A stretch of DNA of 64,000 bases from Conexibacter sp. SYSU D00693 (GTDB taxonomy: Bacteria > Actinomycetota > Thermoleophilia > Solirubrobacterales > Solirubrobacteraceae), in the NCBI RefSeq assembly GCF_017084525.1, contig NZ_CP070950.1, forward strand, positions 2,666,001-2,730,000, read 5' to 3'. Numbering within the stretch: the stretch's first letter is position 1; every line of letters begins with the position of its first letter. Under the pieces are notes generated by a model that saw nothing but the letters and a program-made list of their open reading frames with translations, had not been told where the DNA came from and did not search any database. Below, piece after piece: positions 14,081 to 41,797 of this stretch. A program made the position numbers and the translations under genes.

Positions 14081-14464
14081 CTACCGGTCCGCGTAGCCCG
14101 GATGTGCGACCTCCAGCCGCGCCCGGACCTCCTCGCGCAGCCCCCGCGCGATCTGCACCAGCTCTGCATCACGTCCGCCACGCCGCACCCCCCGCACGGG
14201 GTCAGACCCCGTCGCATCCCCCCGCTCGGGGTCAGACCCCGTCGCATCGGTGCCAGGGCCCGTCGCACGCTCGGGGTCAGACCCCGTCGCATCCTGGCGC
14301 TCGGGGTCAGACCCCGTCGCATGGAGCTCGCGGGCGGCGAGGGCGAGGGCGTGGGCCACGACGAGGAGGCGGCGGCGGGTGGCGGGGTCGGTGTCCGCGG
14401 CGATGGCGGCGACCTCGGCGGCGCAGCCCTCGACGAGGGCGCGGGCGTCGGGCTGGTCGGTCAT
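14081..14464 (-). CDS. DUF6285-like protein interrupted by in-frame ATGSDPER repeats
   Basis: The 127-residue protein starts at the ATG at 14464 (ATGA overlap with the phosphotransferase). Its two ends resemble DUF6285, the small helical protein that often accompanies acyl-CoA dehydrogenase and phosphotransferase genes: RRRLLVVAHALALAAREL near residue 35 and LVQIARGLREEVRARLEVAHPGY at the end. Between them, residues 49-91 consist of four ATGSDP units plus one degenerate unit (ATGPGTD), encoded by a palindromic DNA repeat spaced by multiples of three bases. The usual central part of the family appears to be replaced by the repeats. It may help the dehydrogenase; this is inferred only from neighbourhood. 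Confidence 0.72.
   Translation of the reverse strand: MTDQPDARALVEGCAAEVAAIAADTDPATRRRLLVVAHALALAARELHATGSDPERQDATGSDPERATGPGTDATGSDPERGDATGSDPVRGVRRGGRDAELVQIARGLREEVRARLEVAHPGYADR
14198..14315. repeat. four copies of the palindromic repeat GGGGTCAGACCCC inside a coding gene
   Basis: Exact copies lie at 14198-14210, 14228-14240, 14273-14285 and 14303-14315, each in the longer frame CTCGGGGTCAGACCCCGTCGCAT or close to it; a degenerate copy (GCCAGGGCCCGTCGCA) lies near 14252-14267. Start-to-start spacings are 30, 45 and 30 bp, all multiples of three, so the host frame is kept. Each copy is a six-plus-six palindrome around a central A. A fifth exact copy is found at 41720-41732. Confidence 0.9.
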
Positions 14465-28891: not shown

Positions 28892-28982
28892 GCGCCGGGC
28901 GCGGACGCCAAGGGCGAGCTCCCCGCAACGTCCGGGGTTCTCGGGGGCGCGGGGTGGTCGTCGGTGTGGGACCTCCGCCGCA

Positions 28983-29126
28983 GCGCGGCGGGAAGGACGC
29001 CGCGCTCGCTGCTCGGCAGCGAGGGAGGGAACCACCCGCGCCCGCGTGCTCCGCGGGCGGTCGTGGGGGTTCGAGCGTCGTGACCCTGTCATCCTCGGCG
29101 TCCCACGCCGGAGATGACAGGGTCAC
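28983..29126. repeat. direct repeat copy A with 47-bp palindrome
   Basis: Copy A begins GCGCGGCGGGAAGGAC and ends in a near-perfect palindrome at 29080-29126: GTGACCCTGTCATC (29080-29093) pairs with GATGACAGGGTCAC (29113-29126), and an inner CGGCGT/ACGCCG stem closes on a CCC loop. The palindrome is identical to that of copy B 342 bp away, while the preceding 95 bp have diverged by scattered changes. Confidence 0.85.
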
Positions 29127-29154
29127 GGTCGCGGGGGGCGCGGGAAGCATCGAG

Positions 29155-29191
29155 TGGCGGATTCTCCGCTCCCCAGGCGGAGGATCCGCCA
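29155..29191. repeat. 15-bp hairpin between the two repeat copies
   Basis: TGGCGGATTCTCCGC (29155-29169) and GCGGAGGATCCGCCA (29177-29191) pair with a single mismatch around the loop TCCCCAG. No T-run follows on either strand and no gene ends next to it, so it is more likely part of a repeat element than a terminator. Confidence 0.6.
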
Positions 29192-29325
29192 ACGGATGGC
29201 CCCGAACGCCCCGCGCGCCCCCACGCCTTGCGCGCTCACGCGAACGTGGATCGGTCCCTCTCCCCCGGTGCGAACCGGCGATGGCCTCGCCCCTCCACCG
29301 ACGCCGCGCACAGAGCTTCGCCCCC

Positions 29326-29468
29326 GCGCGGCGGGAAGGACGGCGCGGTCGCCGTCGGGTACCGAGGGAGGGAACCACCCGCGCCCGCGGGCTCCGCGAG
29401 CGGTCGTGGAGGTCGAGCGTCGTGACCCTGTCATCCTCGGCGTCCCACGCCGGAGATGACAGGGTCAC
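29326..29468. repeat. direct repeat copy B with 47-bp palindrome
   Basis: Copy B is the second occurrence of the element at 28983, in the same orientation, with its palindrome at 29422-29468. It ends 28 bp before the stop of the ABC permease gene on the minus strand, so the palindrome could also fold at the end of that transcript. Confidence 0.85.
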
Positions 29469-29495
29469 GGTCGCGCGGGCGCGCCACCGCAGCGG

Positions 29496-40633: not shown

Positions 40634-41713
40634 GTGCATCGTCCCCCCTGCCTGGCGCGCTGCGCCGCCGTCTCGGCCCTGGCCCTCGCTGCCGCGGTGC
40701 CCGCCTCGGCGAGCGCCCAGGGCGACAGCGCCCCGTCCGCGCCGACCATCGACGTCGGCGGCGGCGAGACCCGCCTGCACCTGCGCGAGAGCTTCGTCGG
40801 CCGCCTCGCCGACAGCGGCATCCGCGTGTCCCTGTCGGGCGGGGCCCGCGGCGTGACGCTCCAGCGCTTCCCCGCCACGGGCGGGGAGCTCAACACCTTC
40901 ACCGCCCAGGGCAGCGTGACCCACCGGGGGACCCTGACCCTGCGCCGCGGCTCGCGCGTCGTGCGGCTGACCGCGCCCCGCGTGACCTTCGGCCCCACGT
41001 CGAGCTTGAGCTTCCGGGTGCGCGGCGAGCGCGTGACCGTCCTGAACCTCTCGACGCGCACCACCTCGGCGATCGTCGTCGGCGCGACGCTCGTCGTGCC
41101 CGACGCGGCCGTCGTGTTCACCTCCGGCGGCGCCTCGGTCCTCAACCGGGCGCTGGGCACGCGGACGTTCCGGCGCAGCCTGCGCCTCGGCGATGCCTCG
41201 GTCCGCGCCACCCCGCGTGACACGGTGCAGCTGCGCGGCACGACCCAGCTCGCCCTCGAGCCGGCGTTCGCCCAGGCCGTGACGGCCGCGGGCGCGTCGT
41301 TCGGCGAGGTCCCGCCGGCGACGGTCCCGGCGGCGGGGACGCTGGCCTTCCCCATCGGCCGGCGCAGCATCGTGGCCCCCGCGCTGCAGACCGGCACGGT
41401 CGACCACGGCGGCGGCGTGAAGTTCGTGCGCGGCGCGAGCTCGATCAGCCTCACCGACCCCCTCGTGCGCTTCGACGCCACGCCGACCCTCGCCGTGCGG
41501 CTGAACTACCAGGGCGACCGGGTGGCGATCGGCGACCTGACGCTCGGCGACGCCCGACCCGTCACCTCGGGCGGGTCGTTCACGGTGGCGGGCATCCGCG
41601 TGGCGCTCAACGCCAACGCCGCGCGCGCCCTGAACGCGACGCTCGGCACCGCCTTCCAGCCCGGCACCGCCCTGGGCACGCTGACGATCCAGGGCCAGAC
41701 GATCCAGCCGTGA
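40634..41713 (+). CDS. secreted protein with two HtaA-like repeats
   Basis: The 359-residue protein starts at a GTG at 40634 behind GAGGAGAGG. A signal peptide (CAAVSALALAAAVPASASA) precedes two repeats of about 160 residues, near 30-190 and 195-355. Each has TGGELNTFTAQGSVTHRGTL or QTGTVDHGGGVKFVRG, then a strand-rich part and LNRALGTRTFRRSLRLGDA or LNATLGTAFQPGTALGTLT. The second repeat resembles HtaA, the haem-binding domain of corynebacterial surface proteins, but the conserved Tyr/His of HtaA cannot be confirmed. A haem or surface role is possible. Confidence 0.7.
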   Translation: MHRPPCLARCAAVSALALAAAVPASASAQGDSAPSAPTIDVGGGETRLHLRESFVGRLADSGIRVSLSGGARGVTLQRFPATGGELNTFTAQGSVTHRGTLTLRRGSRVVRLTAPRVTFGPTSSLSFRVRGERVTVLNLSTRTTSAIVVGATLVVPDAAVVFTSGGASVLNRALGTRTFRRSLRLGDASVRATPRDTVQLRGTTQLALEPAFAQAVTAAGASFGEVPPATVPAAGTLAFPIGRRSIVAPALQTGTVDHGGGVKFVRGASSISLTDPLVRFDATPTLAVRLNYQGDRVAIGDLTLGDARPVTSGGSFTVAGIRVALNANAARALNATLGTAFQPGTALGTLTIQGQTIQP

Positions 41714-41715
41714 GG

Positions 41716-41736
41716 AGCAGGGGTCAGACCCCTGCT
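41716..41736. repeat. extended palindrome containing GGGGTCAGACCCC
   Basis: AGCAGGGGTC-A-GACCCCTGCT at 41716-41736 is a perfect 10-bp inverted repeat around one base, starting three nt after the stop of the HtaA-like gene. The core 41720-41732 is identical to the four copies inside the DUF6285-like gene. A one-base loop is too tight for a normal terminator, so a mobile repeat that inserted next to the stop is more likely. Confidence 0.85.
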
Positions 41737-41797
41737 GCTCACGGCTAGGGCCAGCCGCACCGCCGTCGTCCCCCGCGCGGGGGAAGATGGCGGTGCC

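Follow-up and report, generated by a model that had tools for sequence, protein, structure and literature searches.

Dispersed palindromes of a Conexibacter genome pair with AbiEi-DUF559 nuclease genes and may be spread by them

Introduction

The genome of Conexibacter sp. SYSU D00693 is a single 4.43-Mb contig (NZ_CP070950.1), and the window considered here is the 64 000-nucleotide stretch at its positions 2666001–2730000. Near the middle of this window an intergenic element occurs twice in direct orientation, each copy ending in a long palindrome. The first-pass annotation of the window had noted that the two palindromes were identical while the rest of the element had changed, and had suggested that the palindrome serves as a binding site, belongs to a structured RNA or marks where a small mobile element ends. 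What are these palindromes, and what has kept or made them alike? We find that they belong to one of several palindrome classes dispersed through the genome, seven of which bracket a gene for a protein with an AbiEi-like N-terminus and a DUF559 nuclease domain, one class per gene. It is probable, judging from sequence comparisons, that the dispersed palindromes are recognition copies of this dedicated DNA-cutting protein and multiply as a selfish repeat, in the manner of repetitive extragenic palindromes (REPs).

Results

Direct reading and alignment confirmed both copies of the element, in a gene-free stretch that measures 620 bp between called genes. Their bodies (28970–29070 and 29313–29413) are 85% identical, whereas the tails (29066–29137 and 29408–29479) are 96% identical and the palindromes within these (29079–29127 and 29421–29469) agree at all 49 nt. 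Given 15% divergence in the body, the chance of finding no difference in 49 nt is approximately 0.85^49 = 0.0003; the contrast between body and palindrome is therefore real. The identity holds between the two window copies and not across the genome, where the mean column identity is 84% over 21 copies, and the limits of the repeated unit differ from those first proposed: it begins near 28969 and takes in an inverted-repeat end. Each window palindrome forms one long hairpin, which lies 7.6 standard deviations below shuffled sequences for the 161-nt copy and 4.1 for the second. When up to two mismatches are allowed, the arm GTGACCCTGTCATC has five occurrences in the window, compared with an expected 0.33.

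Searches of the whole genome revealed many further copies. BLAST with the window element yielded 47 matches, and a covariance model built from 21 copies of the palindrome (class A) yielded 70, counting both strands. Twenty-seven distinct places scored above 45 bits; one of them belongs to class D, and the other 26 are strong class A places. Other palindromes of approximately 49 bp, with different inner sequences, recur in the same way: across 0.74 Mb of the genome, class assignment gave 26 palindromes of class A (the same number again), 29 of B, 10 of C, 21 of D, 9 each of E and F, 5 of G, 3 of H and 1 of I. An unselected 464-kb sample contained 17 long hairpins, 10 of them assignable to classes A–F; at the same threshold there were none in 200 kb of either of two congeners and one in 400 kb of shuffled sequence. 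When the class A model was run against 40 relatives, six of them congeneric, only one weak place (27 bits) was found.

The genes paired with these palindromes carry the DUF559 domain (PF04480), which has 10 matches in the genome: one plain Vsr-type protein and nine with an AbiEi-like N-terminus, typed by reading the sequences and, for three, with Pfam. Seven of these nine genes are bracketed on both sides, each by palindromes of one class (A, B, C, D, F, G or H), and the class A gene lies outside the window, at genome positions 839146–840102. An automated repeat test was passed by six, those of classes A, C, D and F and of the new classes G and H; for class B, palindrome matches stand beside the gene at genome positions 3145918 and 3146838. 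The two remaining genes have an upstream palindrome only, degenerate in one case. In the bracketed units, which contain a single open reading frame (ORF), the two similar palindromes are 880–950 bp apart. The class B gene itself (L245, genome position 3145948) has a frame that stays open far past the usual stop, and its end may be altered.

The three proteins analysed with Pfam match AbiEi_4, AbiEi_1, DUF559 and the MTES_1575 nuclease (restriction endonuclease, REase) domain, and every one of 22 proteins compared with AbiEi models gave a match. The residues expected in the active site (D, E, D, H, D) are 99–100% conserved in 79 proteins and invariant in a set of 22. Profile comparison gave matches to 3hrl (E 4.4e-10) and to 3r3p, described as a 'Mobile intron protein' (E 3.5e-4), which we take to be the homing enzyme I-Bth0305I. 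According to a review, that enzyme dimerizes on a DNA target almost 60 bp long (PMC3943268). If 3r3p is indeed I-Bth0305I, a target of this length would suit a palindrome of approximately 50 bp.

The same pairing is found in other genomes. Bracketing was scored as a repeat between a zone upstream of the start codon and a zone at the stop codon, for 78 DUF559 genes: the nine of this genome and 69 of 70 loci from relatives, one (L267) having been dropped for its short flank. The 70 loci were among the matches listed, 30 as returned and 40 chosen by hand from lower down, before any palindrome had been looked at. Scores of at least 19 were obtained for 27 genes and of at least 22 for 25. By comparison, mismatched gene pairs reached 19 in 0 of 461 cases, while among 84 other genes of this genome one scored 20 and none reached 22. 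In the relatives, 21 of the 69 DUF559 genes were bracketed at a score of at least 19, and these are spread over 17 of 33 genomes.

Twelve palindromes from seven other genomes, picked as gene-bracketing or as hairpins, were then combined into a single query and searched in their genomes of origin and in the Conexibacter genome. They occupy at least 104 distinct places (150 listed matches), with 11 of the 12 present at three or more. The palindromes are dispersed in all seven genomes, and none of the 150 listed matches falls outside the palindrome's own genome; against the Conexibacter genome the 12 gave a single match (E 0.007). One relative has two classes with 17 and 14 solo copies, respectively, whose alignment is confined to the palindrome and whose flanks are unrelated. 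Beyond these relatives, Tsukamurella tyrosinosolvens NCTC13231 (Mycobacteriales) has an annotated DUF559 gene bracketed by an inverted palindrome (score 34.5), which occurs at four, three and two places in three records, the gene's own copies included. The Tsukamurella records NZ_LR134454.1, NZ_LR134451.1 and NZ_LR134464.1 are labelled 'plasmid', contain pntB and nrdF and probably represent pieces of chromosome. Queries with three Thermoleophilia proteins found DUF559 in 1, 0 and 1 of 72 556 plasmid records, the same Tsukamurella record in both cases, and the Tsukamurella protein matched 15, mostly in part; phages gave two partial matches.

Reading of the 23 bracketed genes revealed that genes and palindromes overlap. 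In 10 of them the upstream palindrome contains an in-frame start codon, often in a central CATATG-like loop such that the right arm encodes the first residues, and in at least 12 the downstream palindrome contains the stop codon, often in its arm.

The palindromes are concentrated at the ends of genes. Relative to the calls of a codon-usage gene caller, classes A, B and D together have 85 sites, 49 in convergent, 28 in tandem and 3 in divergent gaps and 5 inside called genes; the 36 sites counted under class A are the 26 strong and 10 weaker model matches, some of the latter belonging to other classes. Among the 147 gaps of 60 bp or more that served as background, 20 were convergent, 71 tandem and 56 divergent, so that convergent gaps are enriched (49/80 versus 20/147, Fisher p ~ 3e-13) and divergent ones depleted (3/80 versus 56/147). 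Many sites lie a few tens of bases past stop codons. Among 40 loci examined, one of which (L389) is a gene-bracketing copy and not solo, copies in another genome lie 1–30 nt from both stop codons, and one Tsukamurella copy sits exactly between convergent annotated genes, 9 and 7 nt from their stops, while another occupies a divergent gap. The last residues of one ABC transporter are encoded by a class A palindrome (genome positions 1939859–1939911) that overlaps the 3′ end of its gene.

At the window locus the palindromes sit within a larger element whose inverted ends are divergent and have a consensus that reads GGCGTTCCGCTCGGGCG, approximately 20 nt and then GGCGGTCGCTGTTCGGCACTGAGGGAGGGGAACC. 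An iterated profile of these ends has 58 matches in the genome sequence examined, including 16 pairs, most of them 245–455 bp apart; such terminal inverted repeats (TIRs) were seen in the composite element of this genome only. Three of seven ends that we followed led to AbiEi-DUF559 genes, which is how these genes were reached, and no transposase gene was among the genes read around the seven. Element 1 of the window (28969–29320, approximately 350 bp, outer limits approximate, delimited by the TIR model and aligned ends) consists of a left inverted-repeat end, a class A palindrome, a class B palindrome and a right inverted-repeat end. The TIR model matches it at 29001–29057 (+) and 29237–29286 (−), with the 49-bp class A palindrome copy 1 at 29079–29127 and the class B palindrome, of the CATCGATTGGCGGAT family, at 29148–29198. 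Element 2 (29313–29480, + strand) is the left half only, an inverted-repeat end and the identical class A copy 2 (29421–29469), and ends before the 3′ end of a permease gene, the palindrome lying 26 nt past the stop codon of that minus-strand gene. The flanking genes, both on the minus strand, encode a xylose isomerase-like TIM barrel protein (PF01261, 28192–28911) and the ABC-2 type permease (PF01061, 29496–30251). Proteins encoded around the locus have matches in Thermoleophilia and Solirubrobacterales. Other composite elements with GGCGTTCCGCTCGGGCG ends, for example at genome positions 589510–589873 and 2847962–2848337, have no recognizable transposase and carry DUF559 palindromes inside.

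The genome also has three genes for Y1 transposases (Y1_Tnp), the family of the REP-associated tyrosine transposases (RAYTs). Two of them, at genome positions 3380575 and 286145 (L243 and L244), are flanked on both sides by REPs of their own, which have the cores GGGGACTGTCCCC and GGGGTCAGACCCC. Beside the three genes, classes A–I gave nothing beyond matches of 17–21 nt, and we therefore conclude that RAYT and DUF559 pairs coexist in this genome, each kind with palindromes of its own. Palindromes of the GGGGTCAGACCCC group, of the ordinary RAYT/REP type, also occur in the window at 14196–14278 and 41706–41746; those at 14196–14278 lie within a called ORF, in which they would encode repeated ATGSDPER residues.

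Discussion

The pairing of palindrome and DUF559 gene is a direct observation; from it we infer that the protein is likely to bind its own palindrome and, as the best explanation of the dispersal, that the nuclease propagates it. Each palindrome class would belong to one gene, whose product joins an AbiEi-type winged-helix (antitoxin) part to a C-terminal, Vsr-like DUF559 nuclease, the gene-bearing form being a palindrome–gene–palindrome unit of approximately 1 kb. The protein would bind the palindrome as a dimer and cut at or near it, after which repair or transposition would either copy the palindrome or insert the gene at a palindrome's centre. The inserted unit would then run from palindrome centre to palindrome centre, and start and stop codons inside the palindromes are what such an insertion would be expected to leave. 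Solo copies would persist past stop codons, possibly serving also as two-way terminators. In the window, class A is represented twice and class B once, within a larger mosaic element.

Of the three roles first suggested for the window palindrome, those of binding site and mobile-element end come close, given the many dispersed copies and the bracketed genes, although the target duplications expected of a mobile element were not evident at the copies. The structured RNA finds no support: Rfam gave just three matches in the 1-kb region, far below gathering scores and two of them to microRNA families, none above chance, and covariation in class A did not exceed that of shuffles (386 of 500 as high), so we claim no selection for structure in the window copies.

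Several observations weigh against propagation by the nuclease. The nuclease does not explain why the composite element has inverted ends, and no target-site duplication could be seen by eye in the 16 pairs of ends. Of the three classes examined for covariation, only one shows it clearly: class A has none beyond shuffles, and relative genome G027 has some in its class 1 (2 of 500 shuffles as high) and weak covariation in its class 2 (78 of 500). Bracket scores of at least 19 were reached by 3 of 70 control genes in two congeners (19.5–20.5; none of the 70 reached 22), while 48 of the 69 DUF559 genes of relatives scored below 19. Similarity between proteins did not significantly follow similarity between palindromes (Mantel r 0.125, a value reached in 198 of 2000 permutations). 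Finally, the relatives, which are too distant and not syntenic here, showed no case of insertion, of excision or of an empty site; at the window locus, the gene beyond the element lay near the permease in one of 45 relative loci, approximately 5 kb off and in another order.

Other explanations were weighed as well. The convergent placement, with copies a few bases from both stops in other genomes, is what one would predict if the palindromes were transcription terminators of the host, strong hairpins retained where genes end that halt transcription from either side and are alike through copying of the useful part. We consider this unlikely, since the hairpins, on direct reading, are not followed by the T run of an intrinsic terminator, the restriction of one class to each DUF559 gene and to each lineage would be left unexplained, and REPs are described as placed at gene ends in the same way (PMC3733652). 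The spacing of two similar copies 880–950 bp apart also allows solo palindromes to be scars, left when recombination between the copies of a palindrome–gene–palindrome unit removed the gene, but solo copies far outnumber genes and no DUF559 remnants lie beside them in the 0.74 Mb; the chance that they arose in this way appears small. That the palindromes are operators, through which an AbiEi-like protein represses its own promoter from the upstream copy and a regulon from the dispersed ones, would fit the AbiEi matches in all 22 proteins and the start codons within upstream palindromes. It is nevertheless improbable, as the dispersed copies avoid the divergent gaps where promoters lie, a second copy stands at the stop codon and the nuclease residues have been retained.

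The remaining alternatives concern the agent of mobility. A mosaic of the type of miniature inverted-repeat transposable elements (MITEs), some 270–410 bp long and moved by an unknown transposase with the palindromes as passengers, would account for the 16 pairs of inverted ends and for window element 1, which carries both ends. Solo class B copies, however, occur in gaps of 87–185 bp, too short for both ends, and with neither a transposase around the seven ends nor target duplications, we regard this account as quite improbable. The three Y1_Tnp genes make it conceivable that the palindromes are ordinary REPs moved by a RAYT, but two of these genes have palindromes of their own and none has classes A–I beyond short matches, nor do the palindromes adjoin a GTAG head; this explanation is disfavoured and very improbable. 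Propagation of the palindromes by their AbiEi-DUF559 nucleases remains the reading that we prefer.

DUF559 is still a domain of unknown function in Pfam, and the dispersed palindromes had no known enzyme; among open-access PMC papers we found none tying the two together. Linking them supplies testable partners, a substrate for the nuclease and a mover for the repeat. As the palindrome has a different sequence in each genome (17 of 33 relatives and one member of the Mycobacteriales), the pairs offer a natural series of nucleases and sites for the study of how DNA specificity changes. Whether Actinomycetota harbour a class of selfish DNA of its own kind, in which an AbiEi-DUF559 nuclease encoded between its own ~50-bp palindromes homes into the palindrome or spreads it genome-wide, with several independent and fast-changing pairs per host, seems to us evenly balanced. 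If they do, the REP/RAYT lifestyle would have a second and unrelated counterpart, and the multiple copies of DUF559 genes would be accounted for.

Comparison with known systems

Intergenic mosaics of palindromes, such as those found here, are familiar from the RIME/ABC, BIME and SRE families, for which we know of no dedicated nuclease. The AbiEi domain in all 22 proteins recalls the AbiE type IV toxin–antitoxin systems. The EDxHD homing endonucleases share the Vsr-like nuclease domain, on the strength of the profile match to 3r3p, but unlike I-Bth0305I the proteins studied here have an AbiEi-like N-terminus and are encoded between dispersed palindrome copies, with no intron or intein. The Vsr/DUF559 repair endonucleases, represented by Caulobacter VsrA, likewise have a DUF559 domain of the PD-(D/E)XK superfamily; a role in mismatch repair is proposed for VsrA, in a paper whose main text does not contain the word 'palindrome' (PMC12907096). 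The CGTC-tagged REPs are also dispersed palindromes, described as lacking a known RAYT (PMC3733652), but they are short, tagged and without a dedicated gene, which the present palindromes possess; by eye, neither a GTAG nor a CGTC head was found in the flanks of class A or of two classes each from relative genomes G027 and G006.

The closest parallel is with REP/RAYT systems (REPtrons and REPINs), which are described as sharing the dispersed intergenic palindromes, the gene between two copies, the one class per gene, the placement at gene ends and the mosaics (PMC2817692, PMC3116915, PMC3733652). They differ in that the enzyme here is AbiEi-DUF559 and not Y1/HUH, and in that the palindromes here are approximately 40–53 bp long and often contain the start and stop codons. 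Our best reading is thus of a REP/RAYT-like system whose dedicated enzyme would be a Vsr/EDxHD-type nuclease in place of the Y1 transposase.
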